The translations under genes were made by a program, and so were the position numbers. A stretch of 10,513 nt of DNA, taken from Bacteriovoracaceae bacterium (GTDB lineage: Bacteria; Bdellovibrionota; UBA1018). Below the pieces are notes generated by a model, which made no database searches, was not told the origin of the DNA, and saw nothing but the letters and a program-made list of their open reading frames with translations. Positions 1-10,513 of the stretch are shown piece after piece (within the stretch, counting starts at the first letter, position 1; each line of letters opens with the position of its first letter). The stretch is from positions 1-10,513 of the forward strand of contig JAHFAC010000038.1 of NCBI GenBank assembly GCA_023250755.1, given 5' to 3'.

Positions 1-2
1 TT

Positions 3-89
3 TCAGCCATGGCCTTTGCCAATTTCTATATTTCTTAAGTTGAAACTCGGTACACCAGCCCCATTGGAACTGGAAAAGCGGCAAAAAAG
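3..89 (+). pseudogene. Upstream in-frame remnant of the amine oxidase gene, interrupted by TAA at 36-38
   Basis: Frame 3 reads SAMAFANFYIS, then TAA (36-38), then VETRYTSPIGTGKAAKKM running straight into ATG 90. Both sides look like the family pattern in which a small-residue/aromatic helix is followed by a Pro-x-Gly loop and a helix leading to the FAD-contacting strand. Because both flanks are in the same frame, a single nonsense change is simpler than a frameshift. No ATG, GTG or TTG lies in this frame between 39 and 89. The alternatives are a real nonsense mutation (pseudogene), a sequencing or assembly error, or readthrough. Only 36 nt precede the stop, so the upstream gene cannot be judged here. 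Confidence 0.5.
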
Positions 90-971
90 ATGAGCGAAAT
101 ACTCGATGGACGATCCAATGTCACCCTTCTTACCGAAGCTCCAGTCGGAAGAATCTTAAATAGTAAAAACCCAAAGGGTGAAAATCAAGTTGAAGTGACC
201 TATTTACAACAAGATTCAAGCGGAAAACAAAGACCTCATCACGTCACCTCCCACTATCTGGTTTATTCCGCTCAGCTCAAAATAGCCCCAACGCTGATCC
301 AAGGATTTAAGGATGCGCCTGAAAAACGCACGCGTGACCAAGCGGCACTCATGTCTCAGATGGGTTATTCACATTATTCGGTTCATAACATCAAAGTGAA
401 GGGCCATCCCTATCGCCTTACTTACGATACATGGACGCGCGGTACTGATTACACAGAAGATGATTTTACAGATATTATCCTGGGTCGGTGGATGGAACTC
501 AAAGGTTATGATGGATTCAAAGACTTTACACAAGATCCGCAAGGTGATGGCATCATGACGATCTATCATCCTCTTTCCCAGAAATGGATTGGCAAAGGCT
601 ACACCGAAAAGCAAGCGGCTGAAATTGCCAACTCCGCGGCTAATCGAATGCTAGAACTCTATTCACCAATGCTCAAAGCATTGGATCCTGAGTCTGCAAA
701 AAATTCCGAGAAAACAGACCTTAAAATGCTCAAAATTAAGACGAGCCGTTGGCCCTTCTCAGTTCATATCGCAAAGCCGGGTCACTTCATCACTGATGCA
801 AAAATACTCCGTCAACCCTTCGGGAACATCTTCTTTGGAAATAATAATTTGGGTACACCAGCATTTGAAGAAGCCCTCTTTCGCGGCCATTGTGCCGCGA
901 ATAATATCCTGGCTCGAATGAGTCCGCAATTTAAGAACGAGCCTTGGAGCCGATGTCCGCTAGATAAGTGA
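90..971 (+). CDS. FAD-dependent amine oxidase-like protein, C-terminal part (5' disrupted)
   Basis: This 293-residue reading frame matches the C-terminal half of flavin-containing amine oxidases / NAD(P)-FAD oxidoreductases, which oxidise amines using bound FAD. The clearest signature is near the C-terminus (residues about 252-270, NNLGTPAFEEALFRGHCAA), the usual end of the FAD-binding domain, where the G-x-PAFEEAL-RG--AA helix packs on the flavin. Residues 10-22 (NVTLLTEAPVGRI) fit the 'v-l-t-a-V--I' strand after the substrate-domain crossover. The N-terminal dinucleotide-binding GxGxxG motif is not in the window. ATG 90 is probably not the native start: it has no good ribosome binding site, and the same frame upstream (39-89) reads as family-like sequence back to a TAA at 36-38. 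No signal peptide is visible. It converges on the minus-strand gene ending at 1008. The family is fairly sure, the substrate unknown. This may be the tail of a broken gene. Confidence 0.72.
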   Translation: MSEILDGRSNVTLLTEAPVGRILNSKNPKGENQVEVTYLQQDSSGKQRPHHVTSHYLVYSAQLKIAPTLIQGFKDAPEKRTRDQAALMSQMGYSHYSVHNIKVKGHPYRLTYDTWTRGTDYTEDDFTDIILGRWMELKGYDGFKDFTQDPQGDGIMTIYHPLSQKWIGKGYTEKQAAEIANSAANRMLELYSPMLKALDPESAKNSEKTDLKMLKIKTSRWPFSVHIAKPGHFITDAKILRQPFGNIFFGNNNLGTPAFEEALFRGHCAANNILARMSPQFKNEPWSRCPLDK

Positions 972-1007
972 GCATTTTTTAGCGGCAATCTCAACGCGTG
1001 AGCTGGT

Positions 1008-2846
1008 CTACTTTGGATCAATTTTTGGATCAAAGTCTTTCGGGATCGGTAACCGGTGATCCGCTACGACATAAAATACCACAGGCACCCGATCCACACC
1101 GGCTGGCCCAGTAAGAGAAACAGCCACCCATCCTGGATTCACCAATTCAGCTTTGTCGCTTTCTTTACGAAGATCTAAAATTTCAGCCAACTGTTCGTTC
1201 CCATAAGGTGCCTTCCAAACTTGATGCGCTAGTGGATTAGGATGCTCATAAAGATTGAGTGGAGTCACAACTGGTTTCTTTCCAATTTTGTTACTCGCGT
1301 AGCTATCCAAAGCCCCTGGCAAGTGGTATTCGTTTACAAATCGATCACCCACCGGAATATTTTGAAACCAACTGGTGCAATTATCATATCCACCTTTTTT
1401 ACAGTAATACTCCACTGATTGGACAAGCGATGGATTTGCCGGAACATTGGGCTGTTCTCCCAATAACCAAGGTCGCAAGGCCGCACCATTAGAAGAATAT
1501 CCACCGACATCGGCAGCACCTGCCAATCTAAAAAATTGGTCTGCTCGCTGGCCCTCAGTTGAGCTGAGGAGAATGTGAGGCATAATGGTTTCTGAACTGG
1601 GCAAACGCAAAGTCGCCGCCAGACGGCCATAAGCACCCGTCCTTCCGTTAAAAGCGACAAAGAGAGTCCCCTGCTGAGGGGTATGAACATGAACTAAATA
1701 ATCCTTGGACTTAAGCAATCGCAAATACTCACTCAAAGATTGCTGACTCAAAGCTACAACGAGCCGTTTAGGCCCTTGGCCCGAACTTCCACCCTTGCAC
1801 CCATTAGTTGCGTATTTCGGAAAAGATCGAACCACGGTCGCAGCACCAGTTGACTTGATATACTGGCCCAATAAACTTTCTGGCGTCGGCTTCAAAGGAT
1901 TACCGCCATGAAGTTTGAGCTGAACTTCTTCGAGAGTCATCTCACCCAAAGCCCTTCGTAAAATATGAAAATCAGCACCGCCCTCGAATAATGCCTTAAT
2001 TCTGGAAGAAATCGTCTCAGCTGGAACTTCACCCTCCAAGATTTCTAGAAATGCTGTTTCAAGTTTGCTTGATAGCGATTTATGAGTGCGATCTGATTTC
2101 ACAGCTTCAAGAACTTTTTCCAAGTTAAGAACAAAATCTGGCATCTCTACATCCGCCAGCAAGAAACCCACCGCCTCATCCGGCATAAAGACCTGAATTT
2201 TCGGATGCAATTTTTTTATTTGATCATATAAAGCCTGGGTTCTTTTATAACTCCCGAGAATGTCAGCGGGTAATATGCCGGCACCCGCTTCGTCTCCTCT
2301 TAAAAATTTCTGGGCTGCATTAGAAATTTCAGTACTCTCTGCCAATTCAACGAAACGAAGACTTCCCTTTTCAGCCTCTCCTAGCTCTTCCAGCGTTAAA
2401 TACCGTGTGATCAATTTTTTTAATATTTTTGACTGATCAGGATTCAATTTGAAATTTTCAAGATCCTCTGCATTTATGTTCCCTGATTGTCGAAGTTCTG
2501 ACTCAATTTTTGACACTTGTTCTTCAAGACGTACCTTCAACAAAAGCGTGTCTGGATCTTGTAAGGAAAGACGCCCAATCAATAAATCCATATCTACGCC
2601 GCTTGAGAGAGATCGTCCCATCAGAGCCTCAGATAATTTCTGTCCTTCTGTGCTCTTAAAAATGGCTCGACCCAGTGACGAATCTAAAATTCGGGTCAAC
2701 TCAGGGGTCCCTCCCCAGACGGGTAAGCTCAGAGTGGCCCAACTCAAAAAAACTCCAAAAAAAGCCATGCTGCACTCTCTTAAAAACAGCTGGCCAATTT
2801 TCTTACGATTAGATTTATTTCTCCTCACAACACTTCTTCCCTTCAT
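1008..2846 (-). CDS. Secreted paralogous protein A of unknown function
   Basis: I do not recognise a named family. From ATG 2846 the protein is 612 aa; a TTG at 2852 would add two residues (numbering here is from TTG), and a GTG at 2828 sits behind a better Shine-Dalgarno-like AAGGGA. A basic N-terminus (RRNKSNRKK) and a hydrophobic stretch (about 29-47) suggest export or a membrane anchor. Residues 50-82 hold a module shared with both sister proteins (LTRILDSSLGR ... LMGRSL). A helical middle (about 100-330) contains LRRALGEMTLEE and PESLLGQYI, also found in B. The C-terminal region (about 360-605) has VHTP, STEGQR, a C-x7-C pair (C484, C492) running into CTSW---IPVGD, NPGW, and RVPVVFYVVADHR. 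It starts 8 nt after the stop codon of B and is probably co-transcribed and coupled to it. Structure could make it a papain-like (NlpC/LRAT-type) enzyme or a binding protein; neither is shown. Confidence 0.8.
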   Translation of the reverse strand: MKGRSVVRRNKSNRKKIGQLFLRECSMAFFGVFLSWATLSLPVWGGTPELTRILDSSLGRAIFKSTEGQKLSEALMGRSLSSGVDMDLLIGRLSLQDPDTLLLKVRLEEQVSKIESELRQSGNINAEDLENFKLNPDQSKILKKLITRYLTLEELGEAEKGSLRFVELAESTEISNAAQKFLRGDEAGAGILPADILGSYKRTQALYDQIKKLHPKIQVFMPDEAVGFLLADVEMPDFVLNLEKVLEAVKSDRTHKSLSSKLETAFLEILEGEVPAETISSRIKALFEGGADFHILRRALGEMTLEEVQLKLHGGNPLKPTPESLLGQYIKSTGAATVVRSFPKYATNGCKGGSSGQGPKRLVVALSQQSLSEYLRLLKSKDYLVHVHTPQQGTLFVAFNGRTGAYGRLAATLRLPSSETIMPHILLSSTEGQRADQFFRLAGAADVGGYSSNGAALRPWLLGEQPNVPANPSLVQSVEYYCKKGGYDNCTSWFQNIPVGDRFVNEYHLPGALDSYASNKIGKKPVVTPLNLYEHPNPLAHQVWKAPYGNEQLAEILDLRKESDKAELVNPGWVAVSLTGPAGVDRVPVVFYVVADHRLPIPKDFDPKIDPK

Positions 2847-2854
2847 TTTCAATT

Positions 2855-4603
2855 TTAATAAGCATTCACGCTCAAGCCAAAATCAGGCGCAATCGGTGCT
2901 CGATGATCCTGAACAATAAGAAAAACAAAAGGCACGCGTTCCACCGGCGCAGCCCCTGTCATCGAAATTAAAACCCAGCCTGGATTGGCCAGCTCTGCAC
3001 CCAGATTTTGCTGAGAAAGCCCAATCACATCCGCGAACTGCTTATTACCGCTAAAAGGCTTCCAAACTCTCTTGAGCAAATCAGCATCAGGTCCTGTCGC
3101 GAGATAATCCCCTAGCATTTGCACTCGAGGTGCCGGGCTCCTAGGATCGGTATTTCCTGCATGCCGATCGATCACGCCTGGAAAACTATATTCTGATACG
3201 AGTGTATCCCCAATCGGCATATTACCGACCCAATGAGTGCAAGAACTATAAGCACCTGTCGCACAATAAGGCCGTGCAACTCCAGCTGGAACGGGCAAAG
3301 TCCAAGGCTGTTGTGCATATCCACCTAACTTGCTCCCGAGGTCAAAATACTGAGCTAAGCGCTGGCCCTCAGTTGACTTTAAAACCACCTGAGGCATGAG
3401 TGTCCCTAAGCTAGGAAACCTCATCTCAGCATTTAAATTTGCATAACTCCCATGTCTCCCCTTAAAAGCAACGTGAAGAGTCCCCTGTGACGGAGTGTGC
3501 ACCTGCATAAAAAGATTCTCTCCCGTCATGAACTCCAGGTACTTTTCAAACGACTCCTGGCTCAATGCTACGACCAAACGCTGGGGTCCTTGCGGATCAG
3601 TAGCAAGTGGTCCACGCGGGAAAGTCCGCACCACCGTAGCAGCCCCGGTCTCCGCAATGTAACGACCGAGCAAACTCTCCGGTGACGGCCTGAGCGGATC
3701 TCCGCCATAAATCAAGCGCTGCGTTTCTTCCAATGTCATATCGCCCATCGCTCGTCTTAACGTGGCGAGATCAGCCGTACCACTCAAAGCGTCAACCCGT
3801 GCCGCAATCGTATCTGCAGGCACTTTTCCTTGGAGCATCGCTCTGACTGCATTTTTGAATTTTTCACCCAATGTCGCTGCACTTGAATCGGCGGCAATGG
3901 CCTCCGTTACCCTGTAGAAATGATCGACAAAAGTGCGCATTTCTTGATCCGTTAAAAGCTCCAGCATCGCCTCTTTGGGAAGGAGAGAGTGTAGATCTGA
4001 GCCTACCGCAAGCAAGCGATCGACCGTCTGGAATGCGACAACAGCATCTAGATTCACTCGTTCACGAGACCATCTTTCGAGAATACCCATCAACTCAGCA
4101 ACATGGCTTTCAGTGCTTCCGCCCATTAAAAAAGCTTGTGCATTGGCACTCAAAGCTTGATTTTCAATTAAAGGACGAAAGCGAGTAAAAAATTCATCGC
4201 CTAATTCTTCATTAAAAACGGCTCGCAAATTTTCCAGCTTTTGGGACTCTGCCGCCCAGTTGATGGTGGTGCCAAACGCATTTTCTCCTGCACTTCGCTC
4301 AGCATAGCGCACTCCCACTCGATTGAGTCGCTCTTGGATCCGTTGGGCTGTACGCGCCATCCCTGGGCGCTCTAAAGTTGCGATCAACCTTGAAGTACTT
4401 TCGGTGGTTGGAACCTCTGCTCCAACCAAAGCCCTCACCAGCTCACTCCCGCGCCATCCCTCACCGAAAAACAAACGCCCTGCAGAGGATTCAAGAATCT
4501 GCCGAAGCGGTAACTCGGCTGCAAAAACAGGAGGAAGTGACAGCGCTAAACCCAACACCGCAGCAATAGTCAAAAGCCAGAACGAACGAATGAGTTTTTT
4601 CAT
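2855..4603 (-). CDS. Secreted paralogous protein B of unknown function
   Basis: This 582-residue protein is a close paralog of A along most of its length, with no family name that I recognise. A classic Sec signal peptide is visible: KK at 2-3, a hydrophobic core about 8-23, and likely cleavage after VFA (residue 28). The conserved N-terminal module follows directly (LRQILESSAGR-FF---RGSELVRALVG, residues 33-61). The middle is helical and Ala/Leu/Glu-rich. The A-like core includes LRRAMGDMTLEE (282-293), PESLLGRYI, GAATVVRTFP and RLVVALSQ. The C-terminal part has VHTPSQGTL, KSTEGQRLAQYF, C447-x7-C455 in CTHW---MPIGD, NPGW and RVPFVFLIVQDHRAPI. The start at 4603 is well supported by GGGGAGGA ten bases upstream. 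It is the first gene of a two-gene minus-strand unit, and A follows with almost no gap. It probably works in the periplasm or outside the cell. Confidence 0.85.
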   Translation of the reverse strand: MKKLIRSFWLLTIAAVLGLALSLPPVFAAELPLRQILESSAGRLFFGEGWRGSELVRALVGAEVPTTESTSRLIATLERPGMARTAQRIQERLNRVGVRYAERSAGENAFGTTINWAAESQKLENLRAVFNEELGDEFFTRFRPLIENQALSANAQAFLMGGSTESHVAELMGILERWSRERVNLDAVVAFQTVDRLLAVGSDLHSLLPKEAMLELLTDQEMRTFVDHFYRVTEAIAADSSAATLGEKFKNAVRAMLQGKVPADTIAARVDALSGTADLATLRRAMGDMTLEETQRLIYGGDPLRPSPESLLGRYIAETGAATVVRTFPRGPLATDPQGPQRLVVALSQESFEKYLEFMTGENLFMQVHTPSQGTLHVAFKGRHGSYANLNAEMRFPSLGTLMPQVVLKSTEGQRLAQYFDLGSKLGGYAQQPWTLPVPAGVARPYCATGAYSSCTHWVGNMPIGDTLVSEYSFPGVIDRHAGNTDPRSPAPRVQMLGDYLATGPDADLLKRVWKPFSGNKQFADVIGLSQQNLGAELANPGWVLISMTGAAPVERVPFVFLIVQDHRAPIAPDFGLSVNAY

Positions 4604-4613
4604 GAAATAAAAA

Positions 4614-4621
4614 TCCTCCCC
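4614..4621 (-). promoter_or_regulatory. Strong ribosome binding site of gene B
   Basis: On the minus strand GGGGAGGA lies 10 nt before ATG 4603, a near-ideal Shine-Dalgarno sequence. It fixes the start of gene B and contrasts with gene A, whose ATG/TTG start has no obvious site of its own and may depend on translation coming from B. Confidence 0.75.
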
Positions 4622-4733
4622 AGAAAAAGAGTTAACTTAGGTGCCTCCTAACAGAAATATTGCATTGAGTCAAATATGTAGACACGGTGCATAAATTGAG
4701 TTAGACAAAAAACTTCTCAGGGATAAAAACCAT

Positions 4734-4739
4734 AGGGGA
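4734..4739 (+). promoter_or_regulatory. Ribosome binding site of gene C
   Basis: AGGGGA sits 6 nt before ATG 4746. This supports that start, which also gives a proper signal peptide. Confidence 0.6.
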
Positions 4740-4745
4740 TTTTTC

Positions 4746-7355
4746 ATGAAACGTTTAAGATTCTCTTTTCCTAAGTCTATTTTCACGATTTTTTTCGCTA
4801 TTTCGTGGCTTTTTTCAGTCGCAGCATTGGGTGAAAACCTAAAATCAAGCAGCTCTAAAAATCAAACTCAAACTCTGGGACTTTCGGGTGAGACCTCAAT
4901 CACACTACGTGAATTACTCGAGTCCGTTGAGGGTCGATTTCTCCTGACCGAAACCGAAAGAGGAGCTGAAATCACGGAGCGAGTGCTCGGAAGAAGACTT
5001 GCAAACCCCACCGACTTCAATGCTTTTTTAGAAAAAATCAGCCAAAGCAGCTTAAAACCGCTGGCAAATCGTCTTGCCGAACGGATCGGGCGAATCAAAG
5101 AGCGGTATGAAGCTCAATTTCCCCGCCAAGATAAGGTGGATTTTCTCCTTGAAGATCAAAAAGCGGTTCTTCGCGGATTCGCAAGCAAAGAACTTAAAAT
5201 CGAAATCCTCGATACCTCTGCTCATTCTGCCGGCAATACGGTACGCGAAACTTTCATTCGAATGGTCGAATCCCGCCCAGGCACTCCCCCTACTCTTCGT
5301 TATCCCCTAGGCATCGATCCCATGATCCACCCGGATTGGAATCTCCAATTCGGCTTCGAATCTGAGTACACGCTCTCTGAAACTGAAAAACTCTTGGAAG
5401 TCTATGGACCTCGGCCCTCCTTTGGAATTGCACCTGAGCAGTGGCTCCATCAAATGAGCGGAGCCGAACGGGTCCAATGGGTCAAAGCGAATATCAGCCG
5501 ACTTTTTCCCGCTCAACGCGTCCAGGGCGGGTTGGTTAAATTAGCTAACGAGCCTGAGCTCGGTTTTTTGCCCGATTTTGTTATTCTCGACTCCACCCTG
5601 AATCTCGAAATTATTTTAAGCCCTGTTCAAACGCTTGAAGAATGGGTGCGCAACATTACGACCCTGAACAAGCGCTTTGGAACCGGATCCATGCAGGGCA
5701 CCGTGAGCTGTCCCTCGGATGCCTTTTTTGGCAGAGGCTTCGGAAAATCCGCACAGGAGGCCACCGAAGAAAATCTTGGTTTTTTTACTGTCGGAAGCGA
5801 AATGGATGCCTTAGAAAAATTAGAAGTTGGGGCCGCCCGCTATCAAGCGGATCCGACCCGAGCCGTTGCCAATACCTTTAAACACCCTTTTTTAGGGCCG
5901 CTCACCCGCGCTAAACAAGAAAGACTGCTCAACTTTCTCCAATCCAACGCGGTAGAAGAGCTCTTTGACCCGACCACTTTGAGATCTATCAGCGGAAGTG
6001 ATGCCTCTTTTAAATACATTGGCTCCACGGCCTACCGTCCTGACATCATAGGTCCCTCTCGCGTCATCATGGAGGTCAGGGACGCACATAATCATATGCC
6101 AACGCTCATGGATCGAATTCTTAGAAATGTATTTTACCTGCAGTATGGACGAGCGGGATTTCGCCAAACCTCCAGACTTCAAGCTTTTGATGCTGTCGCA
6201 GATTTTGAAAAACTCAGCCAAGAAATCCAGATTTTTTTGAAAGAACTTTTTCCTCAAGCAACGCTACCCAATGTTCAGTATAATGATGCCGAAACCACTG
6301 CTCTTCAAGTCTATCGAAATTTCGCTTATCCCTTACGAAACTGGAACGATCACATCGCTCTCTTCGGAGATTCTGGTTTGGCACAGAAGATTTCTGAAGC
6401 CCAGCGATCCTATTTGAACGCTCTGCAGTCCATTGAGGGGGATTTTCGGGCAACCCGAATTTCGCGTGAACAAGCCTCTCTGCGCGTTCAGGGAGCCCTC
6501 ACGCAATTCGCAGCCGATACAAAAGTATTGCAAGCCCTACGCTCCTGGCAGGCCAAACATCTTTTCAATGATCCGCGATGGGCCAGCTATGTAACACTCA
6601 TGATGAATGAAATGAGCCCACTCGCTGAGGCTTTTGCCAGCAGCAATTGGCAAGGCTCACTCAACTCCAAGGTGACACGACTCCTCTCTCGCTGGCCAAG
6701 AAACGTGGCTTGGGTCGATATGGGACAAAGACGGGCATTGATTGTATCCGGATCGGATCTTACTCCGGAGCAAATCACCCAACTTCGGCAGGATTACCTT
6801 GACGCTTTGTCAGAAGGGACCCTCTCCTTTTCCCTTGAGGGTGAAGAAAGAAATCTCGCTCTTCGTTTGGGAAACCGGCTCTTTCAAAAAACAACCCAAG
6901 CTCTTTCGCAATCAAACTATCCCGAAAAACCTTGGCCTCGAACTGAAACCGTGATCACCCTGAAACCAGAAGAAGAATTGAAACTGAGATTTTACGTAGA
7001 GGCGGGAAAAGCAGACCCTTTCATGGTATTCGGAAACGAAACCCCTCAAGGCTGTGTTTCAGGAAAAACCCGGGGCGATCTTCGCGATAATCGTCCCCTC
7101 CTTCCGATGGAAGGACATAACGGGACCACCTGGGTAACAACAGCCCCCATCGGCGCTAACTCGCACATCCCTCTCGCCGAACTGCTGGGCGCTGACATAG
7201 ACCAAGGCCTTCATGCAAACCCTGTTTTATGGTTCAAATACCTTCAGAGCGCTGCGCCATCGGATCGAATCCCGTTCATGGTCTATTGGACTCCCGAAAC
7301 ACTGCAAAATGCTCAGTTAAGCTTCTTGCATACTCATACTCATACTTATAAATGA
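4746..7355 (+). CDS. Secreted protein C with a glutamine-synthetase-fold / amidoligase-like central domain
   Basis: This 869-residue protein has a Sec-type signal peptide (KRLR at 2-5, hydrophobic core about 11-28, cleavage near VAALG). Residues 53-85 repeat the N-terminal module of A and B (LRELLESVEGRFLL---RGAEI--RVLGRRL). The central region (about 195-470) resembles carboxylate-amine ligases of the GCS2/amidoligase type. It shows a G-x-E-x-E strand (FGFESEY, E205 and E207), a second acidic strand with Ser-Pro (NLEIILSP, E288), and a late R--MEVRD segment (R439, E443, R445). In known members such residues bind Mg-ATP and substrate. A helical linker follows (about 475-720). The last part (about 735-850) matches the C-terminal module of A and B (LKPEEELKLRF, TTW---APIGA, RIPFMVYW), but the CT-W cysteine is replaced by Gly793. 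It ends in HTHTHTYK. The ligase assignment is from motifs only, and ATP is not expected outside the cytoplasm, so activity is doubtful. Confidence 0.82.
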   Translation: MKRLRFSFPKSIFTIFFAISWLFSVAALGENLKSSSSKNQTQTLGLSGETSITLRELLESVEGRFLLTETERGAEITERVLGRRLANPTDFNAFLEKISQSSLKPLANRLAERIGRIKERYEAQFPRQDKVDFLLEDQKAVLRGFASKELKIEILDTSAHSAGNTVRETFIRMVESRPGTPPTLRYPLGIDPMIHPDWNLQFGFESEYTLSETEKLLEVYGPRPSFGIAPEQWLHQMSGAERVQWVKANISRLFPAQRVQGGLVKLANEPELGFLPDFVILDSTLNLEIILSPVQTLEEWVRNITTLNKRFGTGSMQGTVSCPSDAFFGRGFGKSAQEATEENLGFFTVGSEMDALEKLEVGAARYQADPTRAVANTFKHPFLGPLTRAKQERLLNFLQSNAVEELFDPTTLRSISGSDASFKYIGSTAYRPDIIGPSRVIMEVRDAHNHMPTLMDRILRNVFYLQYGRAGFRQTSRLQAFDAVADFEKLSQEIQIFLKELFPQATLPNVQYNDAETTALQVYRNFAYPLRNWNDHIALFGDSGLAQKISEAQRSYLNALQSIEGDFRATRISREQASLRVQGALTQFAADTKVLQALRSWQAKHLFNDPRWASYVTLMMNEMSPLAEAFASSNWQGSLNSKVTRLLSRWPRNVAWVDMGQRRALIVSGSDLTPEQITQLRQDYLDALSEGTLSFSLEGEERNLALRLGNRLFQKTTQALSQSNYPEKPWPRTETVITLKPEEELKLRFYVEAGKADPFMVFGNETPQGCVSGKTRGDLRDNRPLLPMEGHNGTTWVTTAPIGANSHIPLAELLGADIDQGLHANPVLWFKYLQSAAPSDRIPFMVYWTPETLQNAQLSFLHTHTHTYK
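7329..7346 (+). repeat. Hexanucleotide tandem repeat (CATACT)x3 at the end of gene C
   Basis: Three perfect copies of CATACT encode the HTHTHT of the protein's C-terminus, nine codons before the stop. Because the unit is 6 bp, copy-number change would lengthen or shorten the His-Thr tail without shifting the frame. It is short and may be chance or a small metal-binding tail. Confidence 0.75.
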
Positions 7356-7402
7356 ACAGCTCAGTAGTTTTGTTCTGAGTAAACGTATGTTAACGAAGGC
7401 CG

Positions 7403-8359
7403 ATGCGTCCCTCTCGGCTTCGAGTAGCAGCAGTCCAATACCCTGTGAATGGGGGACTCCAATTTCAAGAATTCATGGACAAAATGGAGGACTTTGTTTT
7501 GTCTGCAGCTCGAGATGGAGCGGAGCTCGTGGTTTTTCCAGAACTCTTCACCGCTGATCTTTTTCCACCCGGAGATGTCCAAGCAGAAATCGCTGCGATT
7601 GATTATATAGTCCACGAAAGTACACCGCGATTCTTCGAGTCAGTTCAAAAATTAAGCACCAAATTAAAAATTGCAATTCTTGCCGGAACTATTCCGCGAC
7701 TGGCCGACGCCACTCATAAAAAAATTCGCAATACGGCTTTTTTTTCACTTCCTGACGGTAAAACTTATTTTCAAGACAAGATTTTTTTAACAACGTGTGA
7801 GAGTAAAGATTGGGGCTGGGAAGGCGGGGGGGTCAGCCTCGAATCCCCTGGGCATTCTCCTAGAGTCCCTCTGAATCTCCCACTGAATCTTATTGATACC
7901 CCTTGGGGCCCCATTGTCATTTCGATCTGCTATGATACAGAGATCCCCCTTCTTTCATCCCTTCTGGCATCTCAGTTAGCCGAAAATTTCCCCGAGATTT
8001 TTTTGATCCCCTCTTGTACAGGCAGTTCACATGGATTTTACCGAGTTCGTTGGACCGCACAAGCCAGAGCGGTCGAACACTATGCCTATGTCATTCACAC
8101 TGGCACCGTTGGTCCTGGGACCCAAACTCCCAATATGAACACCCAATTCGGCCAAGCCGCAATCATTACCCCAAGAGACGAGGGATTCGCAGGCCTTCTG
8201 GCCGAAGGCCCCCTCCAAAAATCTGCTATTGTTTATGCGGATCTCGATTTGGATTTTTTACGAAGTAAAAGACAAAAAGCCCAAGTTTATCCCGCACGGG
8301 ATCAAACCCGGCTCATTCAAAAAATAATTGAAAAACCTACCGGAGGAATCATCCCATGA
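7403..8359 (+). CDS. Cytoplasmic nitrilase-superfamily carbon-nitrogen hydrolase
   Basis: This 318-residue protein has the length and fold markers of a complete nitrilase-superfamily amidase, which hydrolyses amides (rarely nitriles) through a thioester on cysteine. The catalytic triad is intact: E47 in VVFPELFT, K126 in QDKIFLT, and C176 in ISICYDTEIP. The N-terminal strand RVAAVQYPV and the FPELFT signature look most like the branch found next to or fused with RimI-type acetyltransferases (Rim1-like), but no acetyltransferase domain is present here. There is no signal peptide, so it should act in the cytoplasm. ATG 7403 is preceded only by a weak AAGG. It follows gene C after 47 nt and overlaps the next gene by 4 nt (ATGA), so it is probably part of an operon with the secreted amidohydrolase. 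The substrate cannot be read from the sequence. Confidence 0.9.
   Translation: MRPSRLRVAAVQYPVNGGLQFQEFMDKMEDFVLSAARDGAELVVFPELFTADLFPPGDVQAEIAAIDYIVHESTPRFFESVQKLSTKLKIAILAGTIPRLADATHKKIRNTAFFSLPDGKTYFQDKIFLTTCESKDWGWEGGGVSLESPGHSPRVPLNLPLNLIDTPWGPIVISICYDTEIPLLSSLLASQLAENFPEIFLIPSCTGSSHGFYRVRWTAQARAVEHYAYVIHTGTVGPGTQTPNMNTQFGQAAIITPRDEGFAGLLAEGPLQKSAIVYADLDLDFLRSKRQKAQVYPARDQTRLIQKIIEKPTGGIIP
8342..8347 (+). promoter_or_regulatory. Ribosome binding site of the amidohydrolase gene
   Basis: GGAGGA lies 8 nt before ATG 8356, inside the end of the nitrilase gene. It confirms the overlapping ATGA start and suggests efficient translation in its own right. Confidence 0.75.
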
Positions 8360-10050
8360 AACTAAGATCAAAACTCACTCGAACAGGAATTATTCTCGCC
8401 CTCTTATTGATTGAAACCTCTCCACTGGCATCGCCGCAGAACTTTGAACTCGTCATCTCTCATGCCCGGCTCTTGACTTATAGCACTGAGAGTTTGCCCG
8501 AAATCGATGCAGTGGCGATCTCCAACGGAAAAATTACCGAAATTGGACGATCCGTCGATCTCGAGCAACGCTGCATAGAGGGATGCAAAATCATCCGCGC
8601 TGGACAGGCTTTTCTCATGCCAGGATTTCAGGATGCCCATGCTCACCAAGCCTCTGGTGGGGCGGGTTTCTTTCGAGTACATGTTTCTGGCTCGTCTGTT
8701 TCTTCGATTGTTTCAACAGTCAAACACTATGCCGAAAGCCACCCTGCCTCAGCATGGATTCAAGGACGAGGCTGGGATGCTGCTGGGTTTGGGACGAACT
8801 TCCCAAGCCGTCGCGACTTAGATCGCGCTGAAAGCAAAAGACCCATTGTGCTTTCAGACAGTGATGGACATCAACTCTGGACCAACTCAGCAGCGATCCT
8901 CGCCGCGGGGATTGATCGAAGCACGCGTGACCCAGAAGGTGGCACTATTTTGCGGGATGCGAACGGCGAGCCCAGCGGAATTTTTCTGGAAGCTGCCGCT
9001 GACTTGATCTATGCAAAAGTTCCAGAGCCCACTGACGAAGAAAGACGTAATTATATTTTGAAAGGCCAAGAAGTCGGCTTGAACGCGGGCATCACGGCAA
9101 CCCATGGAGGTCCCATTGGACTCAAAATGGCTCAAGCCTATCGTGGGCTCGAAGTGGAAGGAAAACTCCATCAAAGGATTTTTTTCTGGGCAGACTTGGA
9201 TGCGGATGACACTGAATTCCAAAAAATGCTCGAATTTGGGCGCTCACTCCCGAAGGATGGTCCCAACAGTGGCAAAGTTCAGCTTTCTGCCTTCAAGGGA
9301 TTTGTAGATGGTGTCATCAGCTCCTATACTGGAGCCCTGCTTGAACCTTATTCGGATGAGCCCACTCAAAACGGAAAACCCTCCTACACTCAAGAAAAAC
9401 TCAACGAACTCGTGATCAGAGCCAACCGCTCAGGATATCCCGTCGCCCTTCACTCCATCGGCGATCGTGCCGTTCGCATGGCTCTCAATGCTTATGAGTT
9501 TTCCAAAAAAACACTCAAACACTCTTTGATCAATCGAATTGAGCACATTGAAGCGCTCGATCCAGCAGATGCCCCTCGATTTGGCCAACTCCAAGTCGCA
9601 GCGTCCATGCAACCCGCTCATATGCACTTTGGTTCACCGGGATCTTCTTATTATCCTGGACGCCTCGGGCCTGAACGCATCAAACATGCTTTTGCCTGGA
9701 ATGAGCTGGATCGCAACGGTGCTCTTTTGCTTTTCGGTAGCGACTATCCTGTCGTATCACAAGACCCCATTGAGGGAATGTACTGCGCAATTCACCGCCT
9801 ATACTACAGCGGAGCCCCCTTTGAACCTGCTCAAAAAGTGGCGCCCGATACTGCTCTCCGGGCCTACCTCGAAAACCCACTCAAGGCCATCGGTTGGGGT
9901 GAGCGATTAGGCAAACTTCAAAAGGGTTACGAAGCTGACCTAGTCCTTTTGCGTGAAGATCCCAGAAAATCAGAGGCGACCTCGCTTTCGCAAAATCAGC
10001 CCAAGCTAGTCATCATCCAAGGCAAGATCGTTTTGAATCGGCTGGAGTGA
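8356..10050 (+). CDS. Secreted YtcJ-like metal-dependent amidohydrolase
   Basis: This 564-residue protein belongs to the amidohydrolase superfamily, Amidohydro_3/YtcJ-like branch, which includes N-substituted formamide deformylase NfdA. Such enzymes hydrolyse amide-like C-N bonds with one or two metal ions. Visible metal and catalytic residues are H95 and H97 (DAHAH, after MPGF), K314 (AFKGFVDGV, a possible carboxylated bridging lysine), H366 (ALHSIGDRA), H397 (RIEHIE) and D463 (FGSDYPV). The C-terminal KGYEADLVLL-DP strand closes the beta sandwich begun by residues 30-90. All expected motifs are present, so it should be active. An N-terminal Sec-type signal (RSKLTR, core about 11-20, likely cleavage near PLASP) points to the periplasm, which contrasts with the cytoplasmic nitrilase it is coupled to. 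The start is fixed by GGAGGA and the 4-nt overlap. The substrate is unknown. Confidence 0.92.
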   Translation: MKLRSKLTRTGIILALLLIETSPLASPQNFELVISHARLLTYSTESLPEIDAVAISNGKITEIGRSVDLEQRCIEGCKIIRAGQAFLMPGFQDAHAHQASGGAGFFRVHVSGSSVSSIVSTVKHYAESHPASAWIQGRGWDAAGFGTNFPSRRDLDRAESKRPIVLSDSDGHQLWTNSAAILAAGIDRSTRDPEGGTILRDANGEPSGIFLEAAADLIYAKVPEPTDEERRNYILKGQEVGLNAGITATHGGPIGLKMAQAYRGLEVEGKLHQRIFFWADLDADDTEFQKMLEFGRSLPKDGPNSGKVQLSAFKGFVDGVISSYTGALLEPYSDEPTQNGKPSYTQEKLNELVIRANRSGYPVALHSIGDRAVRMALNAYEFSKKTLKHSLINRIEHIEALDPADAPRFGQLQVAASMQPAHMHFGSPGSSYYPGRLGPERIKHAFAWNELDRNGALLLFGSDYPVVSQDPIEGMYCAIHRLYYSGAPFEPAQKVAPDTALRAYLENPLKAIGWGERLGKLQKGYEADLVLLREDPRKSEATSLSQNQPKLVIIQGKIVLNRLE

Positions 10051-10064
10051 GCGCCCAAAAAAAC

Positions 10065-10092
10065 TTGACTCGTCGTGTTGCGCGATGATAAC
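10065..10092 (+). promoter_or_regulatory. Possible sigma-70 promoter before the second nitrilase gene
   Basis: TTGACT (10065-10070, five of six consensus bases) and GATAAC (10087-10092, four of six) are separated by 16 bp in the 52-bp gap after the amidohydrolase gene. A start of transcription about 7 nt downstream would leave only a few bases before ATG 10103, so the message would be nearly leaderless. No Shine-Dalgarno sequence is visible there. It may equally be chance, with the gene read from upstream. Confidence 0.3.
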
Positions 10093-10102
10093 CGGCTGTC
10101 AT

Positions 10103-10513
10103 ATGAAAAAACAGCTGCAAGTTCTGAGTTTGGCTTTATTTCTCAACTTAGGGGGCGCGCTCTCTTATTCACCTGCTATTCAAGCAGCGGGAGTGGATCC
10201 CATTGACGAGGTGTTTGAACCCTCAGGAAGCTTTGATCCGCAGAAGTTTGGCAAAGTGGCTGTCGTCCAATGGGCCCCCATGGCTCCGACTCCGGTAGGA
10301 AAAGAAGTCACTGCTCAACAAGCCGAAATTTATAAACAACAAAATCGTGAAGAGCTCAGTGGTTATATTCGTGAAGCCGCCAAAAACGGCGCTAAATGGG
10401 TCATCACCCCTGAGTTTGCCATTGTTAACTATCCGGACTTTCCTGAGTTGCCTCCCGAAGAAGATGAATTCAGAAATCGCGCGGACATTAAACCCTACGT
10501 CGAGGCTGTGCCT
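10103..10513 (+). CDS. Secreted nitrilase-superfamily hydrolase, N-terminal part (runs off window)
   Basis: The first 137 residues of a longer gene are present and the frame is open to the window end. Residues 1-29 form a Sec signal peptide (KKQ, hydrophobic core about 7-20, likely cleavage after IQA). Residues 51-58 (KVAVVQWAP) and 89-106 (IREAAKNGAKWVITPEFA) are the first strand, helix and glutamate loop of a nitrilase-superfamily domain; E104 is the expected catalytic Glu. The later Lys and Cys lie beyond the window. The pattern of a helix, PE-x-x-I, then R--IKPYVEAVP is reminiscent of secreted vanin/biotinidase-type amidases, but this is a loose resemblance. An in-frame ATG at 10085 would add MITGCH; ATG 10103 puts the lysines right at the N-terminus and is preferred. 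It is a different type from the cytoplasmic nitrilase two genes upstream. Confidence 0.85.
   Translation, partial: MKKQLQVLSLALFLNLGGALSYSPAIQAAGVDPIDEVFEPSGSFDPQKFGKVAVVQWAPMAPTPVGKEVTAQQAEIYKQQNREELSGYIREAAKNGAKWVITPEFAIVNYPDFPELPPEEDEFRNRADIKPYVEAVP

Follow-up and report, generated by a model that had tools for sequence, protein, structure and literature searches.

Ligases of the glutamine-synthetase (GS) fold depend on ATP and are for that reason usually found in the cytosol. Amidoligase systems were reportedly described by Iyer et al. in 2009, in the company of ATP-grasp proteins, peptidases, and amidotransferases. Here, we describe a locus from a Bacteriovoracaceae bacterium (assembly GCA_023250755.1, contig JAHFAC010000038.1, positions 1–10,513; "the window" refers to this whole 10,513-nucleotide stretch) that encodes three proteins with export-like starts, A, B, and C. 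The three share modules at both ends. A preliminary description had recognized no named family among them; motif and model comparison now support the assignment of the middle of C to the glutamine-synthetase/carboxylate-amine ligase superfamily. Amidoligase systems and a translocated GS-family ligase are already known; what is new here is the unusual location and the unassigned modular architecture. Two published accounts bear on the comparison: in the sections of PMC7947786 concerned, a GhExE ATP-binding motif is described and Dop is presented as working with ADP and phosphate, and the relevant part of PMC3852478 associates a mycobacterial glutamine synthetase with the cell-wall layer of poly-L-glutamine.

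C (869 amino acids; 4746–7355, forward strand) consists of an N-terminal module ("N-module"), a GS-superfamily domain, and a degenerate C-terminal module. The GS-superfamily domain spans residues 182–599 (5289–6542), as delimited by alignment, structural model, and hmmsearch. Its GhExE motif, GFESE (residues 203–207; 5352–5366), is invariant in all 54 aligned C-type proteins, C itself included. Five further residues, D282, E288, R431, E443, and R445, are invariant in the same alignment and follow an order plausible for the GS superfamily; they may be equivalent to GS active-site residues. The E-x-E and E-x-R motifs are also retained in 10 diverged C-type proteins. At what is presumably the position of the GS HxH motif, the core family reads MQGT or similar. 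Comparison of models likewise gives a GS fold for the middle of C, with a VIA-align Z below 8, a range in which, according to the tool, a match may reflect just a common arrangement of elements. The proposal in the preliminary description that the middle supplies the activity is thereby made likely for C.

A and B are encoded on the reverse strand, on the other side of a 142-bp intergenic region from C. B (582 amino acids; 2855–4603) precedes A (614 amino acids; 1008–2852) by only 2 bases (2853–2854), so that the two look like one transcription unit. The listed start codon of A is TTG, with an in-frame ATG 6 bases further in. As first described, A and B are alike over most of their length (38% identity over 588 columns, E = 2e-120), each with an N-module, a middle, and a Cys-bearing C-terminal module. 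The N-module, placed by profile comparison and hmmsearch, occupies residues 39–126 of A (2475–2738), 26–104 of B (4292–4528), and 48–128 of C (4887–5129). BLASTP detects it between B and C (E = 5e-7); between A and C (E = 5e-5), the alignment begins in the N-module and continues past its end. Using profiles of 54 C-type members (set A2) and 12 A/B-type members (set A3), hhalign gave 99.1% for the N-modules (E = 9.7e-19; 18 and 7 rows).

The C-terminal module corresponds to residues 600–864 of C (6543–7337; profiles, model, and hmmsearch) and, together with a conserved upstream part, to residues 271–613 of A (1014–2042; hmmsearch) and 256–582 of B (2858–3838; alignment and hmmsearch). The single sequences of the window gave no significant alignment here (best E = 0.047; 1.3 for A versus C), while profile–profile comparison gave 97.9% (E = 5.6e-13; 40 and 12 rows) over 165 columns, and the module is therefore larger than the motifs first noticed. 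Some other C-type proteins match the C-terminal module of B directly, with E values of about 2–4e-5. Six comparisons of mismatched modules, run as controls, scored 0.2–0.4% (E = 0.13–0.28). Thus, the end modules that the preliminary description had based on motif strings, both of which are present in A, B, and C, hold up at both ends under the profile comparison it had suggested. AlphaFold models of C and B (pLDDT, a per-residue confidence measure, of 89.3 and 81.7, respectively) agree by eye in the order of their secondary-structure elements: the N-module helices fall at residues 49–59, 61–68, 71–81, 92–98, and 101–124 of C and at 33–38, 40–48, 50–60, 66–77, and 80–103 of B, and the C-terminal modules of both follow the order E-E-H-E-E-E-E-E-H...H-E.

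The C-terminal module is probably more than a mere binding or export end, judging from its sequence, because no other part of A and B is as well conserved in the alignment of 12, and because it carries an invariant Cys. Cys-Thr is found in 12 of 12 A/B-type proteins (Cys455 and Thr456 in B), with no single His established. Among the 40 C-type proteins with the module, 39 have the Cys of the HNCTSW motif or its variants and 37 the His of GHLYTRxG; the one protein lacking the Cys is C of the window, which has Gly793 instead (7122–7124, forward strand) and lacks the His as well. We consider thiol chemistry in the module likely. The pattern resembles that of permuted papain-like domains, Lnb_N (DUF4105) among them. 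A weak bridge to Lnb_N is provided by X11, a family whose members adjoin C-type proteins or are fused to them (L063, L073, L074, L076, L077, L088, L092, and L093), which in hhalign comparisons scored 50.5% with the module of C (E = 1.6e-4) and 43.5% with Lnb_N (E = 2.4e-4), against 0.1–0.3% for three unrelated controls. A 978-amino-acid protein of locus L075 (7489–10425) has a partial Lnb_N match (residues 451–529; 26.4 bits, cut-off 22.2) preceding a diverged GS-fold domain, as well as a GHNTLRVG/NNCAQ motif pair nearer its N-terminus.

The strongest support for a modular system is the variety of payloads that carry the N-module. A search profile built solely from A-, B-, and C-type proteins, run against 368 genomes of the phylum to which the window belongs, found the N-module in 4 at E ≤ 0.001. 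The matches include proteins of L007 (E = 7e-11) and L161 (7.8e-9), each with a CTP_transf_like domain above cut-off that we label "NadD-like" by eye, and, more weakly, L164 (4.8e-4), a 432-amino-acid protein with no Pfam match whose C-terminus looks, by eye only, like a PD-(D/E)xK nuclease. When the profile was extended with the new members, an open frame of 906 codons (L179) joined at 1.7e-7. The N-module is thus attached to GS-fold domains, the A/B module, NadD-like proteins, and the L164 and L179 proteins. The idea that the ends share a role in binding, export, or assembly suits an N-module found on such different payloads; it probably does not suit the C-terminal module, with its conservation and invariant Cys. 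A possible further payload is a protein of L173 (1354–2961) that has an export-like start, contains an HExxH-like motif, and matches the N-module very weakly (E = 0.02).

Export of these proteins is supported by a heuristic, a crude rule for signal-peptide- or lipoprotein-like starts. By this rule, 43 of 55 C-type proteins (set A2 plus protein P0039) have an export-like start, compared with 83 of 229 neighboring open reading frames (ORFs) without a reference match, and several of the 12 C-type proteins that fail look, by eye, truncated or late-starting. A pattern scan of species genomes yielded 14 C-type loci, 13 of them in genomes whose titles are of the Bdellovibrio, Bacteriovorax, or Oligoflexia type; the title of the remaining one names only Proteobacteria. 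In the 368 genomes, at E ≤ 1e-5, C-type matches, some weak or partial, occur in 35 and A/B matches in 10. Nine of these 10 also have C, whereas 26 of the 35 genomes with C gave no A/B match (Fisher p = 2e-9 for co-occurrence, uncorrected for relatedness). Whether A, B, and C always co-occur had been raised as a check, and the answer is asymmetric: A/B is nearly always found with C, and C does not require A/B.

Downstream of C, on the forward strand, lie three genes: nit1 (7403–8359), whose product is a CN_hydrolase by Pfam; a gene for an Amidohydro_3 family protein (Pfam; 8356–10050), which overlaps nit1 by 4 bp; and nit2 (10085–10513), which is interrupted by the end of the window. The Nit2 fragment is a CN_hydrolase-like N-terminal part (20.6 bits, cut-off 23.2) whose complete relatives exceed the cut-off. 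The products of the latter two genes have export-like starts. The arrangement of A, B, and C on either side of the 142-bp region (4604–4745) is borne out by ORF coordinates. Beyond this divergent arrangement, nothing marks the region as the control region it had been called: positions 4500–4850, comprising the gap and its edges, contain no sigma-70-like promoter match (mean for shuffles, 0.6), and no Rfam match in the whole window reaches its gathering score. An ORF near the contig start (90–971), with an in-frame stop upstream, has no usable Pfam match; its C-terminus seems to us reminiscent of flavin amine oxidases.

We examined 26 further loci by BLAST (E = 1e-5), 19 from one set and 7 from another 16; the nine left out comprise eight with weaker C-type matches (L070–L077) and one A/B-only contig (L078). 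Many of the 26 end at contig ends, and some genera are represented by two genomes. A C-type gene was seen in 25, and L067 shows only the C-terminal module, by profile (L057, same contig). The recurrent neighbors, with Pfam checked on representatives, are S58 peptidases (10 loci), Nit2 (8), A/B (4), Nit1 (4), X11 (4), X10 (3), and a BPL_N/GATase-like protein (2). X10 has an export-like start in two of three cases; one of the three resembles ATP-grasp proteins, with scores that stay under the curated cut-offs. The window has one A/B, one Nit1, one Nit2, and no S58, with an S58 fragment on another contig of its genome. In P0039, a C-type protein is fused to a nitrilase that is 45% identical to Nit1. 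In L027/L095, the GS domain and C-terminal module are on separate overlapping ORFs, possibly through an assembly frameshift. In two genomes of one genus, an S58 peptidase gene comes after a tandem pair of C-type genes (L080, 7766–12442; L081, 7733–12400), and in L096 (2979–8487) four tandem A/B-type genes immediately precede a C-type gene. Amidoligase_2 proteins were found in 27 of 144 genomes in a search of the phylum, 25 above cut-off; some have export-like starts by eye (L104, L105, L106, L110, L111, L125, and L127), and that of L104 (1378–3630) also has an R2K ATP-grasp match below cut-off.

We slightly favor a reading in which C is an exported GS-fold amide enzyme, with A and B as its Cys-module partners and the neighboring hydrolases as trimming enzymes. 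C, with its metal/ATP-binding signature, would most likely act on a carboxylate beyond the cytoplasm of its own cell, forming an amide or isopeptide bond or, in Dop-like fashion, breaking one. The helical N-module common to A, B, and C, taken as a docking or targeting module, would hold together or target C, A/B, and the hydrolases. The C-terminal module of A and B would probably be a thiol amidase, transamidase, or peptidase-like domain; C of the window lacks the module Cys and so would depend on A and B to provide the activity in trans. The nitrilase-type hydrolases would then trim or deamidate the products. The division of labor, the substrate, and catalysis itself are conjectural in this scheme, as is the source of ATP. 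No ATP pool is known in the periplasm.

Several further results weigh against this reading. Apart from the low VIA-align score, Foldseek with the C model gave no significant match (best E = 0.04, to unrelated chains), and searches of Pfam, NCBIfam, and PDB sequences returned nothing usable for the family. Amidoligase_2 (PF12224) scored only 0.5% with the core set and 1.1% with the diverged set in hhalign comparisons, and is not among the Pfam matches of the 54 C-type members scanned. For the C-terminal module, the B model has no significant PDB match, and the structures listed for the C model are dominated by GS-domain matches. The Lnb_N profile (18 sequences) scored 0.8% with the module of C and 0.2% with that of A/B; X11 likewise reached only 0.2% with the A/B module, and because the X11 bridge misses A/B we lowered our confidence from modestly to slightly better than even. 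Of 40 C-type proteins, 3 lack the His, 2 of them with the Cys in place, and Nit1 of the window has no signal peptide by the heuristic.

The ATP difficulty could be met by Dop-like use of ADP and phosphate or by action in the cytosol of another cell, options that sequence cannot separate. By analogy with Dop, the GS-fold domain might cleave an amide or isopeptide bond by means of bound ADP and phosphate, requiring no ATP pool. Alongside the Cys module, the S58 peptidases, and the nitrilases, it might break down amide-rich material outside the cell, for example peptidoglycan. We regard this as a possibility, though an unlikely one: X10 adjoins C in 3 of the 26 loci, and the phylum includes the L104 combination of Amidoligase_2 with a weak ATP-grasp match, both of which point to ligation. 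It is improbable that C and its relatives are non-catalytic envelope proteins whose GS fold is scaffold only and whose shared ends assemble a surface structure. The degenerate C-terminal module of C and the replaced HxH would fit such a role, but the acidic and Arg positions that mark the ligase signature do not vary among 54 divergent proteins, E-x-E and E-x-R persist in the 10 diverged ones, and the neighboring genes encode enzymes.

Action in another cell would follow if the N-module labeled proteins for delivery from a predatory bacterium into prey cells, in whose cytosol a GS-fold enzyme, a NadD-like nucleotidyltransferase, and nuclease-looking payloads would meet ATP, NAD, and DNA. The N-module does follow export-like starts (by eye for L007, L161, L164, and L179) on several unrelated payloads, two of which are nucleotide-dependent kinds of enzyme, and 13 of the 14 C-type loci fall in the genomes with Bdellovibrio-type and similar titles noted above. 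There is also a precedent, in the part of PMC2908040 concerned: a distant GS-family ligase, the actin cross-linking domain, is translocated into the cytosol of target cells; chains of this domain appear in the Foldseek list for C, non-significantly (E = 0.86–1.3). However, no secretion-system or immunity gene was identified in the window (the genome was not searched for one), few genomes have the N-module (4 of 368), and the majority of C-type proteins are without it, its coverage being 18 of the 54 members aligned. We consider prey-directed effectors doubtful. Bolder, and in our view more doubtful still, is the idea, prompted by the several payloads, that the N-module defines a lineage-restricted exported family with swapped payloads acting inside another cell, the ligase using the ATP of its victim.

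The favored reading, of an exported amide enzyme with partners, leaves a choice that bears on predatory-type bacteria whichever way it falls: is an export-like GS-fold family, mostly Bdellovibrio-type in these searches, made up of ATP-sparing amidases or of enzymes of the cytosol of another cell? Further payloads could be sought by way of the N-module. Among known systems, Lnb_N/DUF4105 periplasmic domains (PF13387) appear to share with the C-terminal module a GH...R-G strand and a later NC motif, the partial match before a diverged GS domain in L075, and the weak X11 link to the module of C; they differ in the negative direct profile comparison and in the failure of X11 to match the A/B module. 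The GS superfamily, including GS, gamma-glutamylcysteine ligases, and PafA/Dop, resembles the middle of C in its GhExE strand, in its fold, and apparently in the acidic and Arg motifs that come later, whereas C-type proteins have export-like starts, no Pfam-level similarity, what we take to be a replaced HxH, and extra N- and C-terminal modules. Amidoligase systems similarly link amide-bond-making-type and amide-bond-breaking genes, with fusions; here, the proteins are export-like, the Amidoligase_2 profile is unrelated, and the partners are S58 peptidases, nitrilases, and the A/B module. The mycobacterial glutamine synthetase is not known to have modules like those of A, B, and C. That protein is an ordinary GS; going by its description in the relevant part of PMC3852478, the likeness is that of a GS enzyme tied to amide-rich wall material. 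Finally, the actin cross-linking domain of MARTX/VgrG toxins, as the corresponding part of PMC2908040 presents it, differs in target, delivery, and domain set, and its structural match to C is non-significant, but it is likewise a GS-family ligase that acts outside the cell that produces it.
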